Assembly: GCF_023015985.1 (NCBI RefSeq)
Contig: NZ_JALKAO010000001.1
Span: forward strand, 682,001 to 746,000
Direction: 5' to 3'
From: Marivita sp. S6314
GTDB taxonomy: Bacteria > Pseudomonadota > Alphaproteobacteria > Rhodobacterales > Rhodobacteraceae
DNA length: 64,000 bases
Of the stretch, positions 2,077 to 49,778 are shown one piece after another; position 1 is the stretch's first letter, and every line of letters starts with the position of its first letter. A model generated the notes under the pieces. That model was not told the DNA's origin. It saw only the letters and a list, made by a program, of their open reading frames with translations, and did no database searches. A program made the position numbers and the translations under genes.

Positions 2077-3095
2077 GTCAGCACCATGCTCATAGGCAAC
2101 CTGTCACGTTTGCGTTGCAGTTCAATATGCCCCAGCGGGGTCCATCCAACAAACACCGTTTCGACGCTGTCGCGCTTCAACGCCGCCCGCAGCGCGCTTT
2201 CGATCTGACGCCGGTCTTTCTTGGCCGACGGGGCCGGATCAATCACGATCTGGCCGCCCAACCCGCGCAACCGAAGCTGGCGCGGCAGGTCTTTGACCGA
2301 GGCCAGATTCGCCTTCAACCCAGCCGCCGGGCTGGTGTCCCCACCGGTGTTCACGTCCACCGCCACCAAGGCGCGGGTCGGTTCAATCGCCATCGACGCA
2401 GGCCCGCCAAGAGGCACATCGCGCGATGTCAGCTGGTCCACCGCGTCCAGAACGCCATGGCGCTCGAAACTGCCATCGATGTTGTCGATCTCGGCTTTGT
2501 CCGTCCATTCGCGCCACGCCAGCAGGTGCGGCCCATCACCTTCGATCAACAGCTCTGCATCGCCGTCTTTGTCGGCCATCACCTGCGTCGCAAGATCGGC
2601 CATCGCGGCAATGTCATCGGCGATTTCGTCCGCGTCCGACCCTTCGCAGGACGACCGCAGGATCAGGCCAAACTGGCCTGCATCCATGATCTCGTGTGCA
2701 ACGGCCAAAAGCGCTTCGCGCGCGTCGTCATCCTTGATCCGGCGGGACACGTTGATGCCCGGCGCATCGGGCGTCACGATGGCGTAGCGGCTTTTGAACA
2801 GCACTTTCGCCGTGACCGGAATGGCCTTGCCCGGTTCCGCATATCCGGTGACCTGCACCAACAGCGGCTGCCCCGGGGACAGGCCCTTGACCTGCCGGAC
2901 AAACGCGGTGCCATCAGGCGTGCGCAGGAACATGCCGCCCTGCCCTTTCATCGGGCGTTCGACAATCGCGCGATAGATTGTGCCCGGTGCCGGCAGGTCG
3001 GTCGCCACAAAGAAATCCTGCAGCAGCCCGTCCACCATCAGCGCCGCGGCTTCGCGGTTGCCGATATGGTCGAGTGCAATCGTCGTGCCCTTCAT
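2073..3095 (-). CDS. short ribonuclease E/G family protein
   Basis: The 340-residue protein has an N-terminal S1-like part (roughly residues 1-110) and a catalytic DNase-I-like part. The two metal-site segments are visible: [12 protein letters not shown] near residue 240 and [11 protein letters not shown] near residue 285, equivalent to the D303/N305 and D346 regions of E. coli RNase E. It is shorter than E. coli RNase G (about 490 residues). It lacks the CPxCxG zinc-link that joins RNase E protomers, having only one cysteine, in an SSCEGS segment. It is translationally coupled to maf upstream and yacG downstream. It probably takes part in RNA processing, but substrates cannot be inferred. 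Confidence 0.85.
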
Positions 3096-3670
3096 GTTCG
3101 ACCCTCATAGAGCGGGTATCCCGCCGCCACCAAAAGCTGCGCGGTCTCGGCCAGTGGCAGGCCGACAACCGCGCTGAAACTGCCGCTGATCCATGGCACA
3201 AACGCGCCTGCCGGTCCCTGGATGGCATACCCGCCTGCTTTGCCCTGCCAGTCGTTGCTGGCCAGATAGGCGTTCACTTCGGCGTCGCTCAGGGATTTCA
3301 TCTTTACCTGTGTGACCACGTCGCGTTCCCACAGGCGGTCGCCGCGCCGGACAGCAATCGCCGTCACCACGCGGTGTCGCCGCCCCGACAGGGCATACAG
3401 AAACTGCGCCGCTTGTGCCGCATCTTCGGGTTTGCCCAGAATCCTGCGCCCCAGCGCAACTGTCGTGTCGGCAGACAGGACAATTTCATCCGGCCCAGCC
3501 GGGATGGCCATGGCCTTTTCACGCGCCAGCCGCACGCAATAGGGGCGCGGCAATTCACGCGGCCGCGGGTCTTCGTTGATGTCGGGCGGGCGAATATCGT
3601 CCGCCTCGACCCCGATCTGCGCCAACAGCTCGCGCCGCCGGGGGCTGCCGGACCCAAGCACGAGCTTCAT
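3092..3670 (-). CDS. maf: Maf-like nucleotide pyrophosphatase
   Basis: The 192-residue protein begins [20 protein letters not shown], the Maf signature SxSPRRxELL, and contains [19 protein letters not shown] near residue 65, which includes the catalytic acidic residue region. Maf proteins hydrolyse non-canonical or modified nucleoside triphosphates (dTTP, UTP or m7GTP, depending on the subfamily). The subfamily cannot be fixed by eye. It lies 7 nt downstream of infA and overlaps the RNase gene by 4 nt. Confidence 0.9.
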
Positions 3671-3978: not shown

Positions 3979-4863
3979 TCAGCCCAGATGCTGCGTTGCG
4001 ACAATACCGTCACGTCCCTCTTGGTCGCTCCAATGGCGCCGGTTCAGCACGACACCGTCGGCGCGCACATGGGCAATGCTGGCCAGATCAACCTCGGCAT
4101 AGGTCCATCCGGGTGCGTTGAGCGTGCCTTCGGCCAGAACCCCCGTGGCCGGGAATCCGGTGTCGGGCGGGCCAAAAACCCCGCCCATTCCGGTGTTTTC
4201 ATCCACCGCCTGCGACCAATCACAAGCCCCAACCGTTGACGACATGACCGTCACACACTGGTTTTCCAACGCCCGCGCCATGGCTCCGATGCGCACCCGC
4301 GAATAGCCGGTCAGGGCTTCGGTGCAGGACGGCACCAGAATCAGGTCCGCCTCGGCCACCGCGCGGGCCAACAGCGGGAATTCGCTGTCATAACAGATCA
4401 GAATCGCGATCTTGCCCAGGGCCGTGTCGAAGATCTTGAGCGGCCCACCCGCCCGCACGCCCCACTCTTCACGCTCGAATCGGGTCATGATCTGCTTGTC
4501 CTGATGCCCCCGGCTACCATTGGGTGCAAAAAACCGCGCGCGGTTGACCGGTCGGTCCCCGAATTCGGGATCAAACACCGGGGCTGAAGCCGCAAGAATG
4601 TAGACCCCATACTGCGCCGCCAGCCGCGCATGCACATCATCCGCTGCGGGCACGTGTTCGGACACCGCGTGCAAAGACCGCTCCAGATCATACGCGACAT
4701 CACGCCCGGCAAGCGTGGCCAGCTCCATCGCGCCGTATTCCGGAAACACCAACAATTGCGCGCCGGTCCCGGCCGCCTCCCGAACCCAGCGTTCCAGCGT
4801 GTCGGCATAAGCGTCAAAGGACGGCAAAAACGCCATCGGATAAGCGGCGGTTGCGATCTTCAT
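3979..4863 (-). CDS. carbon-nitrogen hydrolase (nitrilase superfamily)
   Basis: The 294-residue protein shows the Glu-Lys-Cys triad of the nitrilase superfamily: Glu42 in LLVFPEYGAMEL, Lys in HQDKQIMTRFE, and Cys in KIAILICYDSEFP. Members hydrolyse amides, nitriles or carbamoyl groups; the substrate is not predictable here. The ATG at 4863 (MKIATAAYPMAF) was chosen because it overlaps the stop of the upstream GNAT gene by 4 nt; the longer reading has a non-conserved extension. The run of coupled genes (LMW phosphatase, SnoaL-like, GNAT, nitrilase) suggests one transcript. Confidence 0.85.
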   Translation of the reverse strand: MKIATAAYPMAFLPSFDAYADTLERWVREAAGTGAQLLVFPEYGAMELATLAGRDVAYDLERSLHAVSEHVPAADDVHARLAAQYGVYILAASAPVFDPEFGDRPVNRARFFAPNGSRGHQDKQIMTRFEREEWGVRAGGPLKIFDTALGKIAILICYDSEFPLLARAVAEADLILVPSCTEALTGYSRVRIGAMARALENQCVTVMSSTVGACDWSQAVDENTGMGGVFGPPDTGFPATGVLAEGTLNAPGWTYAEVDLASIAHVRADGVVLNRRHWSDQEGRDGIVATQHLG

Positions 4864-5456
4864 GCGGGATCCTTTTCCAAATGGCGCATCCAGACCTGCA
4901 GCGGCTTGGCGGTCTCCTCGGTCTGGTCCACGTCTTTCCAACGGAACTGCGCGACCGCCCCGTCCAACGGTGTGTACCAGCGTTTGCGCCAGAACCCGTG
5001 CAGCGATTGGTACTGCTCCGGCTTCAGCGGATGATCGTCAGGCCGCACCACGCTGCAAAACGCCGAATAGCGCGCACCCAGATGCCGGGCATGCGCTTCG
5101 CGGGTGTCAAAGAACCGATGCCCAATGCCGTGCCCGCGATACTGGGGCAGCAACACGGATTCGGCACAGTAAAACACGTCGCTCAACGGGATATCTGCCT
5201 TGGCAAACGCAGCGCCAAAATCATCGGCGTGATCAGCCATCGGCGTCCCGGTTGACGCACCGACAAGACGCGCACCGTCAAAGGCGCCGACAAGGATCGC
5301 ATCCTTGCTTTTGCGATAGGTGTCCAGATAGGCCCGCTCGTAGTCGAGATCGCCATCATAAAGATACGGCCAGTCCCGGAACACCGCGATGCGCAAGGCC
5401 GCGACATCCTCAAGCGCGACATCCAGCGCCGCCCCGGTCAGCACCTCGACCCGCAT
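4860..5456 (-). CDS. GNAT family N-acetyltransferase
   Basis: The roughly 198-residue protein contains LLPQYRGHGIGHRFFDTRE, the acetyl-CoA binding R/QxxGxG/A motif of GNAT enzymes, followed by a helix. The substrate is unknown. Two starts are possible: a GTG at 5459, which overlaps the upstream stop by 4 nt, or the ATG at 5456 used here, which overlaps it in a TGATG arrangement. Its 3' end overlaps the start of the nitrilase-family gene by 4 nt, and the pair may act on one small metabolite. Confidence 0.82.
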   Translation of the reverse strand: MRVEVLTGAALDVALEDVAALRIAVFRDWPYLYDGDLDYERAYLDTYRKSKDAILVGAFDGARLVGASTGTPMADHADDFGAAFAKADIPLSDVFYCAESVLLPQYRGHGIGHRFFDTREAHARHLGARYSAFCSVVRPDDHPLKPEQYQSLHGFWRKRWYTPLDGAVAQFRWKDVDQTEETAKPLQVWMRHLEKDPA

Positions 5457-8233: not shown

Positions 8234-9316
8234 TCAGCGCACCTTGAGCGTGGCCAGCCCGATCAGCGCCAGGATGAGCGAGATGATCCAGAACCGGATC
8301 ACGATCTGCGGCTCGGCCCAGCCCTTCTTTTCATAATGGTGATGAATCGGGGCCATCAGGAACACCCTTTTGCCCGTGCGCTTGAAATACAGCACCTGGA
8401 TAATCACCGACAGCGCTTCGACCACAAACAACCCACCGACAATCGCCAGAACGATCTCGTGTTTGGTGGCCACCGCAATCGCCCCCAACGCGCCGCCCAA
8501 AGCCAGAGACCCGGTGTCGCCCATGAACACCGCCGCGGGCGGCGCATTATACCACAGGAACCCCAGCCCGCCGCCGAAGATCCCAGCGGTAAAGATCAGG
8601 ATCTCGCCGGTTCCCGGCACGTAATGCACATCCAGGTATTCGGTGAAATCGACCCGACCAACGGCATAGGCAATGACGCCCAGCGTGCCCGCCGCGATCA
8701 TCACCGGCATGATGGCCAACCCATCCAGACCGTCCGTCAGGTTCACCGCATTGGCGGCACCGACGATGACGATCACCGCAAAAGGCACAAAGAGATAGCC
8801 CAAGTTCAACAGCGTGTCCTTGAACACCGGGAAGGCCAGCTTGTTGGTCAGCCCTTCGGGATGATACTGCGCGGCCCAGTACCCGGCGAGGGCTGCAATC
8901 ACAAAACCCAGCAAAAGCCGGACCTTACCGGACACACCTGCGGTGTTTTGCTTGGACACCTTGGCGTAATCATCGGCAAACCCGATCAGCGCAAAGCTCA
9001 TGGTGACAAAAAGCACCATCCAGACAAACGGATTGTCCAATCGCGCCCAAAGCAGGGTCGAGGTCAGCAACGCGCCGACGATCAGCAATCCCCCCATCGT
9101 GGGCGTTCCGGCTTTGGAAAAATGGCCCTCAGGTCCGTCTTCGCGGATCGGCTGGCCCTTGCCCTGTCGCTTGCGCAACACGTTGATCAGCGGACGTCCG
9201 AACAGGAACCCGAACAACAGCGCTGTCAGAAACGCGCCCCCTGCCCGAAAGGTGATATAGCGAAAGAGGTTGAAAAAATCGCCCCCGTCCGACAGAGCGG
9301 TTAACCAATACAACAT
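8234..9316 (-). CDS. mraY: phospho-N-acetylmuramoyl-pentapeptide transferase
   Basis: The 360-residue multispanning membrane protein makes lipid I from UDP-MurNAc-pentapeptide and undecaprenyl phosphate. Visible MraY motifs are FADDYAKV near residue 115, [12 protein letters not shown] near 190, [12 protein letters not shown] near 265 and [12 protein letters not shown] near 325. The start [10 protein letters not shown] at 9316 lies 4 nt after the murF stop; the longer reading begins inside murF. It is the last cell-wall gene of the cluster in this window. Confidence 0.96.
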
Positions 9317-44719: not shown

Positions 44720-45448
44720 ATGATCCTTTACCCAGCGATTGACCTCAAAGATGGCCAGGCCGTGCGCCTGCTGCGCGGGGACATGGAAAAATCGACGGTG
44801 TTCAACGATGATCCCGCCAGCCAGGCGATGGAGTTCGTCGAGGCCGGGTGCACCTGGTTGCACCTTGTCGATCTGAACGGTGCGTTTGCGGGCGAGCCGG
44901 TGAATGCGGCGGCGGTTGAGGCCATTCTGGCCCGCACCAAGGTCCCGGCGCAACTGGGCGGGGGCATCCGGGATATGGCAACGATTGAACGCTGGCTCGA
45001 CAAGGGTCTGCAGCGGGTGATCCTTGGCACCGTGGCGGTTGAGAACCCCGATCTGGTGCGCGAGGCCGCAAAGGCGTTTCCGGGCCACGTCGCCGTGGGC
45101 ATCGACGCGCGCGACGGCCGTGTGGCCACCAAGGGCTGGGCCGAGGAGACCGATGTCATGGTCACCGATCTGGCCCGGTCGTTCGAGGACGCAGGTGTGG
45201 CGGCGATCATCTATACCGACATCAACCGCGACGGCGCGATGCAGGGGCCGAATGTAGAGGCCACCGCCGATCTGGCCCGCGCCGTGTCGATCCCGGTGAT
45301 CGCGTCGGGTGGGGTGTCGTCGCTGGACGACCTGATCGCACTGCGCGACTGCGGGGCTAACCTGAACGGCGCAATCTCGGGCCGCGCGCTTTATGACGGG
45401 GCGATTGATCTGAAAGAGGCGTTGTCGGTGATGTCCGCAGCCACTTAG
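44720..45448 (+). CDS. hisA: phosphoribosylformimino-5-aminoimidazole carboxamide ribotide isomerase
   Basis: The 242-residue TIM-barrel enzyme starts [20 protein letters not shown], with catalytic Asp8, and has [11 protein letters not shown] near 45 and [14 protein letters not shown] near 165, with the second catalytic Asp. It performs the fourth step of histidine synthesis. The ATG at 44720 is set by the conserved beginning. Its 3' end overlaps the stop of a minus-strand papain-like gene by 4 nt. Confidence 0.95.
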
Positions 45449-45909
45449 ATCGTTGCCGGGTCCCGGACCAGAAGATAGCCGCGACACCTTTGGGTGTTGA
45501 AGGTCTTGATCGACACCGTCGCCGTGCCTCCGACATCGACAGGTTCCGGATCGTTGTAGAACACGGTCCCGCCATCGTCGCCTTCAGTACTGCAACCGGT
45601 GATGACAACGGCATGGCCGTAGCCTTTCCAAAGCGTTCCCGCCCAGATCGGTCCATAGTTTGACAGCGTGTCGATCAGCGACGCAGCGGTGAAATCATGT
45701 GTGGCAGACTGAAGAAAGACCATGTCTTCGTTACGGGCCAATGTGGCGACCTCTTCGAACAAAATGATCCGGCCTTCCTGCCATACGTTGGGCATCCCGT
45801 ATCGCGGGCCTGCCTCGTAATAATACCCGATCATACAGGCGCTGGCATACCAGCAACTCAACGCGAGGCGTTGCGGGATCAGCGGCACGTTTAGCTTTAC
45901 TTCAGCCAT
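45445..45909 (-). CDS. stand-alone papain-like cysteine protease (AvrRpt2-like fold)
   Basis: The 154-residue protein shows a minimal papain-like pattern: [23 protein letters not shown] with the oxyanion Gln and nucleophile Cys19 followed by Trp, HAVVITGCS with the His in WKGYGHAVV, and FYNDPEP as the Asn/Asp region. This fits the Papain_cyst/C39-like group. No signal peptide or secretion domain is visible, so substrate and site of action are open. It lies convergent with hisA and divergent from hisF, unrelated to histidine synthesis. Confidence 0.72.
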
Positions 45910-46208: not shown

Positions 46209-46967
46209 ATGTTGAAAACCCGGATCATTCCCTGTCTCGATGTTGCCGATGGCCGTGTGGTCAAAGGTGTGAACTTTGTCGATCTGCGCGACGCCGGTGA
46301 CCCGGTGGATGCGGCTCGCGCCTATGATGCGGCAGGGGCGGACGAGATTTGTTTCCTCGACATCCACGCCACCCACGAGAATCGCGGCACGATGTTCGAC
46401 GTGGTCACCCGCACGGCAGAGCAGTGCTTTATCCCGCTGACCGTGGGCGGTGGCGTGCGGACCGTCGCGGATGTGCGGGCGTTGTTGCTGGCGGGGGCCG
46501 ACAAGGTGTCCTTCAATTCCGCCGCCGTCGCCAACCCCGACGTGGTGGCCGAAGCCGCAGATCAATTCGGCAGCCAGTGCATCGTGGTGGCGATTGACGC
46601 CAAGACCGTATCCCCCGGCAAATGGGAAATCTTCACCCATGGCGGACGCAAACCCACGGGCATCGACGCTGTGGAGTTTGCCAAAACCGTGGTCGCCAAG
46701 GGTGCGGGGGAAATCCTGCTGACCTCAATGGACCGCGACGGCACCAAGGCCGGGTTCAACCTGCCCCTGACGAAAGCCATTTCGGACGCGGTGGACGTGC
46801 CGGTGATCGCCTCGGGCGGCGTTGGCACATTGGATCATCTGGTCGAAGGCGTGACCAAAGGTGGCGCCAGCGCTGTGCTGGCAGCCTCCATCTTTCACTT
46901 TGGCGAATACACAATTGGCGAGGCCAAGGCCCATATGGCAGAGGCGGGTATCCCGGTGCGGCTATGA
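46209..46967 (+). CDS. hisF: imidazole glycerol phosphate synthase cyclase subunit HisF
   Basis: The 252-residue TIM-barrel protein starts [20 protein letters not shown], with catalytic Asp11, and has [13 protein letters not shown] near 45, [14 protein letters not shown] near 80 and [15 protein letters not shown] near 170, with the second Asp at about 177. It closes the imidazole ring with ammonia from HisH. The start is set by the conserved N-terminus. HisE overlaps by 4 nt. Confidence 0.96.
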
Positions 46968-47272
46968 CGTTGGAAGAACTGGAAACCATCATCGCGACCC
47001 GCGCAGCGGCCAGCCCCGACGACAGCTGGACCGCCAAGCTGTTGGCCAAAGGCCCGGAAAAATGCGCCGAAAAATTTGGCGAAGAAGCGGTGGAAGCGAT
47101 CATCGAGGCGGTCAGGAATGACCGGGACAAATTGACGTCCGAAGCCGCCGATGTCCTGTTTCACCTGCTCGTGATGCTGAAATCGCGGAACGTGGCCCTG
47201 GCGGATGTGATGGCCGAACTGGACCGCCGTCAGGCGCAATCCGGGCTTCAGGAAAAGGCGTCACGGTCCTGA
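46964..47272 (+). CDS. hisE: phosphoribosyl-ATP pyrophosphatase
   Basis: The 102-residue all-alpha protein has the HisE/MazG-type metal motif [18 protein letters not shown] and [14 protein letters not shown]. It performs the second step of histidine synthesis. Its ATG overlaps the hisF stop (ATGA). Confidence 0.94.
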
Positions 47273-47318: not shown

Positions 47319-47408
47319 ACACCGTTCACACCGTACTCACACGGATGGAACACCCGTTTTCCACAGCCTTTGGTACCTTGGCGATGCGCACCGTTTTTTT
47401 GCGCATCG
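47319..47408 (+). promoter_or_regulatory. upstream region of the MNIO locus: short direct repeat and hairpin
   Basis: ACACCGT occurs twice at a 9-nt period (47319-47325 and 47328-47334). A 9-bp dyad CGATGCGCA / TGCGCATCG (47382-47390 and 47400-47408) encloses a T7 run. The repeats could be an operator; the dyad could be a leader or an attenuator. No clear sigma-70 or ECF promoter was seen. Confidence 0.35.
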
Positions 47409-47449: not shown

Positions 47450-47872
47450 ATGAAAGACGTAGACATTGCATCCCCCGTTCGTGTGACCATGCCTGCCTCG
47501 GTTGCCGCTGACATCGGCGTATTCAAAAAGGCGGTTGGCACGATCCTTGATAAACTGGGCTGTCCGGCCTGTTGTTCCGGCCATGACATCCGGTTCGACA
47601 TCCACCGCGATCTTGTGTTCCGCGATCTGGAATCGCGCGGCATGCCTCGGGCGATGGCAGAGGTAAAACCCCGCCCTGCGGCAAACACCGTTGCGCTGGC
47701 CCCCGAAACCGGTGCCCAGATCGACAACGTGTTTCGCGCCATCGACAAGATCGCTGAATTCACCGGCTGCGGCGCGTGTTGCTCGGGCCATGATCTGCGG
47801 CTGCAATTCGAGCAGAACTTCCTGCTGGATGAACAGCTGAATGTCGACGCCGCAGCCGTGCGGTTCGGGTAA
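47450..47872 (+). CDS. putative RiPP precursor-like protein with two CxACCSGHD motifs
   Basis: The 140-residue protein has two similar halves about 69 residues apart. Residues 24-48 end in GCPACCSGHDIR and residues 94-117 end in GCGACCSGHDLR, each after a VF..A...I helix-like stretch. All six cysteines (38, 41, 42, 107, 110, 111) lie in the two motifs. There is no signal peptide. Its stop codon abuts the ATG of an MNIO (DUF692) enzyme, the usual place for an MNIO substrate peptide. In this enzyme family cysteine or aspartate residues near such motifs are modified. Whether it is cleaved to a small product or stays a modified protein is unknown. Confidence 0.65.
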   Translation: MKDVDIASPVRVTMPASVAADIGVFKKAVGTILDKLGCPACCSGHDIRFDIHRDLVFRDLESRGMPRAMAEVKPRPAANTVALAPETGAQIDNVFRAIDKIAEFTGCGACCSGHDLRLQFEQNFLLDEQLNVDAAAVRFG

Positions 47873-49309
47873 ATGTCCGCGATGTTCCAGCCGCCAAAGC
47901 TGGGCATCGGGATGATCTTTTCGGCGGCGCTCACACCATTTCTGCGCCGCCGTCCCGACGCTTTGGACGTGCTTGAAATTGAACCGCAAACGCTTTGGCT
48001 CGCCGATGACCCGATCGACGGCCCGTTTGCCGAATTCCGCCCGGCGCTTGAGGCCTTTTCCGAATTGCCACAGGCGAAACTCGTGCATTCCGTCGGCGTG
48101 CCCCTTGGCGGCACACGCAGGCCTGATCCGGGGCAGATGGCGTTGCTCAAGGCGACGGCGGATCGTTTGAACAGCCCGTGGGTATCGGAACATTTGTCCG
48201 TCGCCGGCACACCGCATCAATCCGCCGGGTTCCTGTTGCCACCGCTGCAAACCGAAGACGGCGTCGCAACGGCCGTGGCCAATATTCAGGCCTTCAAAGC
48301 CGGTCTTGGACGACCCGTCGCCGTGGAAACGGGTGTGGCGTATCTCAAGCGTAAAGCGTTCGAAATGCCGGATGGCGTGTTCCTGCGCCGGGTAGCGGAA
48401 GAGGCCGATTGCGGACTGCTGCTCGACCTGCACAACCTGTGGTGCAACCATATCAACGACCGGATCGACATTGATGAAACCCTGTCGCAAATCCCCTTCG
48501 ACCGGGTGTGGGAGGTGCATCTGGCGGGCGGTGAAGAGATGGGAGGCGTCTGGCTTGACAGCCATTCCGGGGCCATGCCCGACGCGCTGGCCGCCCGCGC
48601 GCGCGAGGTGATCGCCGAGCTTCCGAACCTGGGCGCGGTGAATTTCGAGATTTACGACACGTTCCTTGAACGGGTGGATGACGCCGAATTCGATCAGATC
48701 GTCGAGGATTTGCGCAGCATCTGGGCGCATGCCGGTCAAAGCCGCAGTGACCTGCGCCCGTTTGATATCGTCACACCTGTGGACAGCCACGACACCTCGC
48801 CCGCGCAATGGGAGGACAGCCTGACCCGCGCGGTCTGGAAATCCGATCCGTCCGGCCACCTCTGGCCCGAGGATCACCCGCTTTTGACGCTTTATGCGTT
48901 TCTTGCGCGGTCGTTCCGGGGCTCCCTGCTCACACGGGCGTTGCCGCGTGCGGTGCGCTACGGACTGCTGCGTGACGGGGACCGGTTTGAACAGACACTG
49001 TCGGCTTATTTCGATGCCCAATCGCCGCAGATGTTCGCCCCATTGGAGGCCGCCGCATTCCGGAACTGGCTGATCGCGCAGGGCGAACATGATCCGCTGA
49101 TGCTGGGGCTTCTGGACTATGACATGGCGTTTATCGAAATGCTGACATCAGACACCCCGAAGATCGTGCGCTTTCCCGGTGATCCGGCCCCGGTGTTCGA
49201 GGCCTTGGTCGAAGGCCGTTTGCCTGCGCAACCAAAGCCACCGGAGTGGGAACTGGAGATATTACCCGACGCAACGTCCGACGGGTTTTCTGCTCAATCG
49301 GCGGGATAA
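47873..49309 (+). CDS. multinuclear non-haem iron oxidase (MNIO, DUF692) fused to a partner-like C-terminal domain
   Basis: The 478-residue protein has an N-terminal DUF692 TIM barrel with putative metal ligands: Glu35/Glu37 (LEIEPQ), His72 (LVHSVG), Glu106-His107 (SEHLS), Glu152 (VETG), Asp185/His187/Asn188 (LDLHN), His216 (EVHLAGG), Asp229/His231 (WLDSHSG) and Glu259 (NFEIYD). MNIOs (MbnB, TglH, ChrH, BufB) modify Cys or Asp in peptides. The normal length is near 280; residues 300-478 form an extra helical domain whose end (LDYDMAFIEMLTSDTPKIVRFPG) resembles the separate partner proteins that bind the precursor. The ATG directly follows the stop of the CCSGHD gene. Confidence 0.85.
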   Translation: MSAMFQPPKLGIGMIFSAALTPFLRRRPDALDVLEIEPQTLWLADDPIDGPFAEFRPALEAFSELPQAKLVHSVGVPLGGTRRPDPGQMALLKATADRLNSPWVSEHLSVAGTPHQSAGFLLPPLQTEDGVATAVANIQAFKAGLGRPVAVETGVAYLKRKAFEMPDGVFLRRVAEEADCGLLLDLHNLWCNHINDRIDIDETLSQIPFDRVWEVHLAGGEEMGGVWLDSHSGAMPDALAARAREVIAELPNLGAVNFEIYDTFLERVDDAEFDQIVEDLRSIWAHAGQSRSDLRPFDIVTPVDSHDTSPAQWEDSLTRAVWKSDPSGHLWPEDHPLLTLYAFLARSFRGSLLTRALPRAVRYGLLRDGDRFEQTLSAYFDAQSPQMFAPLEAAAFRNWLIAQGEHDPLMLGLLDYDMAFIEMLTSDTPKIVRFPGDPAPVFEALVEGRLPAQPKPPEWELEILPDATSDGFSAQSAG

Positions 49310-49310
49310 C

Positions 49311-49778
49311 CTAGAGCTTGGACGAGATCACCCCGGTGTTGAACCCGCCCATGCGCAACTCGCCGAAGAGCCGCTGGTATTCGATCTTGGGACAGCGGTT
49401 CATCACCACGTCCACACCGCGCGCTTCGGCTTTTGCCGCCGCCTCCGCGTGTTCGACGCCGATCTGCATCCAGATGGTTTGCAGGTCGGGGAACGCCTCC
49501 AGCGCCGCGTCGACGATCGGCGGCACGGCATCGGACCGGCGGAAGATGTCGACCATATCCACCGGCGCAGAGATATCGGACAAGCTGGCGACGATCTCCG
49601 CGCCGAAAAGCCGTTTGCCCGCATGGCCCGGATTGACCGGGATCACCGTGTATCCCTTGAGCGCCAGATAACGCGCGACGTAGTAGGACGGGCGGACCGG
49701 ATTGGTAGACACACCAACGACCGCGACGGTTTTCGTCCGTTTGAGAATGTCGCGCAGGAAGGTGTCTGAGTAGGTCAT
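49311..49778 (-). CDS. CoA-binding domain protein
   Basis: The 155-residue protein is a single Rossmann-like CoA-binding domain: TVAVVGVSTNPVRPSYYVARYL near residue 18, YTVIPVNPGHAGK, and NRCPKIEYQRL near the end. Such YccU-type proteins have no firm role. It is convergent with the MNIO gene, with 1 nt between the stops. Confidence 0.85.
   Translation of the reverse strand: MTYSDTFLRDILKRTKTVAVVGVSTNPVRPSYYVARYLALKGYTVIPVNPGHAGKRLFGAEIVASLSDISAPVDMVDIFRRSDAVPPIVDAALEAFPDLQTIWMQIGVEHAEAAAKAEARGVDVVMNRCPKIEYQRLFGELRMGGFNTGVISSKL

Follow-up and report, generated by a model that had tools for sequence, protein, structure and literature searches.

The precursor gene precedes the MNIO gene in bufferin clusters (Antoine et al. 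2025, PMC12452194, in the accessible part of its text), and the bufferins carry signal peptides. In the systems of PMC13097082, according to the part of it available, formation of a 5-thiooxazole corresponds to a loss of 4 Da per Cys. The accessible text of PMC12452194 also covers 3-thiaglutamate, where TglI is a separate protein from TglH and the target of TglHI is a C-terminal Cys; the Vibrio methanobactin-like system, where MovX has an extra winged helix-turn-helix domain, no partner protein and a C-terminal Asn as target; and aminopyruvatide, which is made from a C-terminal Asp. Besides the extra domain of MovX, MNIO/nitroreductase fusions are reported there. The iron ligands of TglH are H71, H107, E151, D184, H216 and E258, together with N187, D229 and H231 (PMC10880893, in the part accessible). 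The closest described entry is cluster IV of PMC12452194, ten sequences of 119-146 aa with 5-6 Cys and a CxxCC motif, labelled "Adjamnio-IV - MNIO". In what is accessible of that paper the family amounts to a table row and one sentence, which names it a possible new precursor family and gives no mechanism, and the term adjamnio occurred in this one paper only in the literature searched.

The window analysed here, a stretch of 64,000 nucleotides from Marivita sp. S6314 (contig NZ_JALKAO010000001.1, positions 682,001 to 746,000), contains on its forward strand two genes that fit this description, both with ATG starts. The first (47450..47872) encodes a 140-aa putative substrate protein of the adjamnio-IV type with two tandem units, as judged from the ORF, its relatives and an HMM; the second (47873..49309) encodes a 478-aa MNIO/DUF692 enzyme. 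Both ORFs are as the initial annotation described them, with 0 bases between the stop of one and the start of the other, and the six Cys of the small protein all fall within its two motifs (C38, C41 and C42; C107, C110 and C111). The protein ends in Gly, and its N-terminus is not hydrophobic, the highest Kyte-Doolittle mean over 12 residues in the first 40 aa being 1.39, where the signal peptide of the bufferin from the same genome reaches 2.39; this agrees with the earlier view that no signal peptide is present.

The likeness to adjamnio-IV extends to the length of 140 aa, the six Cys, the CPACC and CGACC motifs, the missing signal peptide, the position of the gene before that of the MNIO and the absence of a partner gene; all 11 alphaproteobacterial proteins have 5-6 Cys and 10 of the 11 measure 140-145 aa. 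Half of the 20 proteins gathered here lie outside the 119-146 aa range: seven single-unit proteins and those of loci L025 (169 aa), L030 (162 aa) and L023 (148 aa by the start used). Identified by these features, and not by sequence against the published alignment (Fig. S3), the CCSGHD protein family is very probably adjamnio-IV. The system had been put forward as a candidate undescribed one, a claim that does not stand, since the pair itself is very probably already tabulated. New here are the duplication, the near-universal C41, the conservation of the ligands, the seemingly partner-like domain and a site holding the pair only; the accessible adjamnio-IV text makes no mention of a fused partner domain, a single-unit form, a target Cys or the chemistry. 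The strings ACCSGFD, CCSGHD, CCSGFD and CPACCSG gave nothing in the literature searched. Nor did a search for MNIOs fused to a DUF2063-like domain, which included the accessible parts of PMC12257519, PMC13174530, PMC13097082, PMC12710340 and PMC8692599, with supplements and most subscription papers outside its scope. Taken as a whole, the locus is best explained as a self-contained two-gene MNIO system with a fused partner, in which C41 and C110 are oxidised, an account that we hold to be fairly probable.

Occurrence and pairing of the two genes

The two-gene system is rare. The small protein was found in two of 101 close genomes, both of the same genus as the source; in the order, five of 390 genomes had it. 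The scan of a larger set, 84,980 species genomes, with an alignment of five returned 282 pattern matches, 16 of which encode relatives; it requires exact peptide patterns, so the figure is a lower bound, and the source genome possibly lies outside the scan. The 16 relatives span five phyla and comprise ten alphaproteobacteria, a Pseudomonadales bin, an Anaerolineales bin (Chloroflexota), a Cyclobacteriaceae bin (Bacteroidota), Glutamicibacter and Acrocarpospora (Actinomycetota) and a Synechococcaceae bin (Cyanobacteriota). Searches centred on single genomes turned up the system once among 296 genomes of an actinobacterial class and once among 146 of the cyanobacterial phylum, each time in the genome at the centre, and gave matches in three of 148 Bacteroidota genomes: the centre, a divergent locus (L077) and a chance-looking one (L078). 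A full enzyme at E below 1e-60 was present in one of 61 genomes of the family of L077, again the centre. In many of the genomes 10, 20 or 40 of the initial candidates were scored, and some members were possibly missed by these counts.

An MNIO gene adjoins the small gene in 16 of 16 scan loci and again in L077, which bears out the initial reading of a substrate candidate with Cys motifs beside an MNIO and shows the pairing to be strict. Leaving out L020 and L027, the intergenic spacing is -14 to +18 bases in 15 of 16 measured pairs and +141, by the start used, in L025. At L020 (6398-7854, Paracoccus amoyensis) there is a change of frame within the enzyme match, next to an open small gene; at L027 the enzyme match begins upstream of the open ORF. 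Homologues widespread without a DUF692 neighbour, the case that the initial annotation had set against itself, were not encountered, as the neighbour-less matches were weak and chance-looking. In the class and phylum searches the 140-aa protein itself was the only strong match, and eight other match rows from seven genomes (G104 appearing in both searches), with E from 7.9e-5 to 0.008, look like chance. Among these, loci L031, L033 and L037 were rejected as relatives, being weak matches inside unrelated-looking longer ORFs with no MNIO neighbour, and the other four places yielded nothing at E 1e-3 on rescanning. L078 was likewise rejected, as a weak match in an ORF that lies over a longer opposite-strand ORF, also with no MNIO. 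Plasmids gave no match for the 140-aa or the Glutamicibacter small protein, and viruses none for the latter in a search that reaches close relatives only.

The divergence of the two genes is modestly correlated over eight alphaproteobacterial rows (Mantel r 0.46, with 68 of 5000 permutations as high) and more strongly over all 16 (r 0.92, 0 of 5000), where deep splits dominate. Against L015 (Marivita hallyeonensis) dN/dS is 0.18 for the small protein and 0.12 for the enzyme at a dS of about 1.4, near saturation; across six genome pairs both genes give 0.04-0.27, dS being near saturation in some. Judging by the recurrence of the family, the low dN/dS and the score of unit 2 described below, which exceeds that of shuffles, the pair is more than chance ORFs.

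A duplicated unit with one near-universal cysteine

Searches of the protein families told little about the small protein. There was no NCBIfam match at E up to 1 for the 140-aa protein or at E up to 10 for seven relatives; Pfam gave sub-threshold matches only, DUF2282 (PF10048) not being among them at E up to 1, and no PDB sequence matched at E up to 5. A single-unit HMM was built from five proteins of 71-86 aa, two in L026 and one each in L027, L028 and L029. It matches twice in each of the ten two-unit proteins submitted, which did not include L018, L019 and L020. In the 140-aa protein the first match (residues 10-59, 71.4 bits) lies in unit 1, the canonical form, at about residues 8-66 (47471..47647), and the second (residues 91-133, 33.8 bits) in unit 2, a diverged copy, at about residues 78-135 (47681..47854), both on the forward strand like the motifs within them. 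Residues 71-140 alone score 36.5 bits, and shuffles reach at most 5.3 (264 of 300 shuffles reported). These paired matches show the 140-aa protein to have been built by tandem duplication of a unit of about 55 aa, which occurs singly in Actinomycetota, Bacteroidota and a gammaproteobacterium; the Glutamicibacter protein measures 75 aa and that of Acrocarpospora 71 aa. In the alphaproteobacterial proteins unit 1 is canonical and unit 2 diverged, eight of the 11 reading GHxACATGCD there; L025 and L030 show the opposite arrangement, with the diverged unit first and the canonical one second.

Motif 1, GCPACCSGHDI, covers residues 37-47 (47558..47590), and motif 2, GCGACCSGHDL, residues 106-116 (47765..47797), C110 being the counterpart of C41. 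The presence of CCSGHD in both units explains why the protein looked so striking. The duplicated CxACCSGHD reported initially is real in this protein; for the second motif it does not hold as a family rule, since among the 11 alphaproteobacterial proteins nine have His in place of C107 and eight have Ala in place of C111. Thirteen two-unit and seven single-unit proteins should contain 33 units, and a pattern allowing C or G at position 41 found all of them. Their consensus is G, then C (21), H (11) or Y (1), two variable positions, C (32) or G (1), C (21), A (9), Y (2) or F (1), S (23), T (9) or A (1), and G. The equivalent of C41 is thus kept in 32 of 33 units (28 of 29 when the near copies L018 and L019 are set aside), and C38 and C42 in 21 apiece; at position 46, 27 units have D, four have N and two have K. 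One of the exact scan patterns, GC[PQ]ACCSG, contains C38, C41 and C42, so that Cys conservation in the canonical units is partly built in, and it is the diverged units and L077 that single out C41. C41 and C110 would therefore be the best candidates for the target, in a list narrowed from six Cys and two Asp.

The same pattern bears on the idea that the CCSGHD protein binds metal through unmodified Cys and His, the gene pairing reflecting a shared metal physiology. A CxxCC motif with H or C at position 45 could do so, and a tyrosinase gene is found close to the Pseudomonadales pair; however, C38 and C42 vary, the Cys-bearing copy in L077 retains only two motif Cys, and the pairing with an MNIO is strict in five phyla, so that we consider this account highly improbable. 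Beside that copy and the enzyme, L077 (6339-6605, reverse strand) encodes a paralogue in which all motif Cys are replaced (GYPDGYAGF), which tells against a purely Cys-based role.

The catalytic domain and its possible chemistry

The enzyme matches PF05114 (MbnB_TglH_ChrH) with E=1e-40 and 140.1 bits, over a cut-off of 25. Its catalytic domain, about residues 1-295 (47873..48757, forward strand), aligns with TglH (PDB 8hci/8hi7/8hi8, the chain identity being taken from the papers) in such a way that the nine ligands of the latter correspond to H72, H107, E152, D185, H216 and E259 and to N188, D229 and H231. All nine are invariant in the 15 family enzymes aligned, L020 and L027 being left out as broken. 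The full set of putative metal ligands announced for this MNIO is therefore upheld, and iron binding at these nine positions is putative.

Among NCBIfam models BufB is the best, at 118.9 bits, far below its cut-off of 310; HvfB (83.5 of 360), ApyH (78.8 of 400), ChrH (48.5 of 600) and MbnB (25 of 325) follow, the last being an equivalog model for methanobactin. The BufB, HvfB, ApyH and ChrH models match 15 of 15 aligned family enzymes and MbnB 6 of 15, BufB having the best E. In a tree of the first 300 residues, with 11 BufB and four plasmid DUF692 proteins for comparison, 14 family enzymes are set apart by a branch whose support is 100/100, and a length of 2.19 separates them from the BufB side.

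With the bufferins and captophorins (BufABC, HvfABC, FonABC) the pair shares the best model and a Cys-motif protein encoded before the MNIO; unlike them, it has no signal peptide, no separate DUF2063 gene, no adjacent DoxX gene and no DUF2282 match. The source genome (39 contigs, 3.77 Mb) contains one other DUF692 gene, which belongs to an ordinary bufferin operon of DUF2282 protein, MNIO, DUF2063 and DoxX (L014 3325-5955, in contig C11 of G000 at about 769-772 kb), whose bufferin does match PF10048.

From the relation to BufB, 5-thiooxazole would be the likeliest product, with a loss of 4 Da at each site. Although the likeness to BufB favours thiooxazole chemistry, the long branch is a reason not to take it for granted. 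The enzyme might instead modify the protein by other chemistry: at the Asp after the motif, as in aminopyruvatide, by thioamide formation or carbon excision at Cys, or through a cross-link between two residues of the motif. The ApyH score close behind that of HvfB, the distance from BufB and the prevalence of D at position 46 are in line with this; the N and K found at that position, the constancy of C41 and the internal place of the motif, aminopyruvatide being made from a C-terminal Asp (PMC12452194, accessible part) and the 140-aa protein ending in Gly, speak against it. On balance, we see such chemistry as rather unlikely.

A possible partner-like domain at the C-terminus of the enzyme

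Beyond the catalytic domain all 17 enzymes aligned (L027 and L077 included) have a C-terminal domain of about 170 residues, which in the 478-aa enzyme spans about residues 308-478 (48794..49306, forward strand). It has no Pfam match, and its profile matched no known partner protein among PDB sequences. When profiles were compared with hhalign, 15 enzymes against 29 DUF2063 proteins of bufferin operons gave a score of 24.7 and a probability of 5%, and nothing in global mode; 17 enzymes against the 29 gave 28.4 and 16%, with a maximum of 19.8 for 60 column shuffles and 11.6 for the reversed target; and 17 against 31 gave 35.0 and 52% over 83 columns in order. In the last case E is 0.00014 for one comparison, and none of 200 column shuffles, a lenient control, reaches the score (maximum 20.6). 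An RRE-like tail bears a weak likeness to the last part of the DUF2063 partner, 4 of 150 shuffles being as high. That the C-terminal residues form a fused DUF2063-like partner (PME) domain is moderately supported by these comparisons.

Two other sources of comparison were set aside: some tblastn matches of the enzyme that extended beyond the DUF692 gene in bufferin operons, the Azospirillum genes being in different frames, and plasmid DUF692 loci L100-L103, where no clear PME-type 2 gene was seen.

The initial annotation had noted that a separate partner gene is absent, and in this it was right: the sole DUF2063 match in the source genome is in the bufferin operon, and the next gene after the enzyme is on the opposite strand and encodes a CoA_binding_2 protein, not DUF2063. 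What it had not foreseen is that the enzyme itself seems to carry a partner-like domain, which is perhaps why the gene is missing. The arrangement recalls TglHI, an MNIO with a recognition domain, and MovX, an MNIO with an extra domain, although in the former the recognition domain is a separate protein, in the latter the extra domain is of another kind, and in both the target lies at the C-terminus.

The small protein could also be regarded as a partner or metal-delivery subunit, the target of the enzyme being encoded elsewhere. It is without a leader/core layout, its L077 paralogue is without motif Cys, and two-unit proteins retain one diverged unit. This reading is distinctly unlikely, given that a partner-like domain is apparently already part of the enzyme, that the gene precedes the MNIO gene as bufferin precursors do (PMC12452194, accessible part), that one Cys is near-universal and that the site in the genus holds no other gene.

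Proposed mechanism

We propose that a multi-iron catalytic barrel and a DUF2063-like partner domain are naturally fused in the enzyme. In the model, it would recognize a small unit devoid of signal peptide, probably folded as beta-alpha-loop-beta according to the sequence pattern, and use O2 to oxidise one near-universal Cys of the GCxACCSGxD loop, that is, C41 and C110. The substrate would be the whole small protein with the motif in the middle of a domain, and not a leader followed by a C-terminal core. As the whole protein would be the substrate and no linked protease or exporter is seen, the product is probably a modified mini-protein that remains cytosolic and perhaps binds copper or another soft metal; this is the weakest step. 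More tentatively, and possible at best, the pair might constitute a minimal mobile MNIO unit with catalyst and partner in one polypeptide, in which a folded 55-aa substrate domain is modified at one loop Cys and kept cytosolic, giving a protein-derived cofactor or metal site and not a secreted RiPP.

If the fused-partner reading is true, two genes, one enzyme chain, a small substrate and a named Cys would make a very simple MNIO test system. It bears on (i) which MNIOs work without a partner protein, a question left to future studies in the accessible text of PMC12452194, and (ii) whether MNIOs modify folded, non-exported proteins.

The genomic site

The pair is flanked on the left by hisE (PRA-PH; 46964..47272, forward strand, PF01503 E=6.9e-21) and on the right by the CoA-binding-domain gene (49311..49778, reverse strand, PF13380 E=7.7e-38), which is present in all 17 genomes of the genus. 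In 14 of these the site is closed, hisE lying 15-137 bases from the CoA gene; in the source genome and in G015 exactly the pair, and nothing else, stands between them, which indicates that no third gene is needed at the site; in the remaining one (L087) the locus ends early. One gain with many losses, or a recent gain, both fit this pattern. Other relatives occupy other sites, and near kin share flanks: by labels assigned by eye, the pairs of L016, L023 and L024 are also beside hisE, those of L017-L019 beside uvrB and the rest beside other genes, and L020 and L022 have the same downstream gene. Among the neighbours listed for 12 other loci no common third gene was noticed by eye, and a visual comparison of 17 upstream regions brought out no motif in common.

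A papain-like C70 protein (45445-45909, reverse strand, PF12385 E=2.7e-19) is encoded among the his genes 1.5 kb upstream of the pair; as a leader protease it was dropped, having no relative in the other loci examined. Upstream of the small gene, at 47383-47407, a perfect 8-base inverted repeat, GATGCGCA/TGCGCATC, with a 9-base loop was seen by eye. In the Pseudomonadales bin (L026) the tyrosinase gene is located upstream of the pair (2123-3379), and two similar papain-like fragments, the first recognized by eye, flank it (4683-4886 and 8240-8509).
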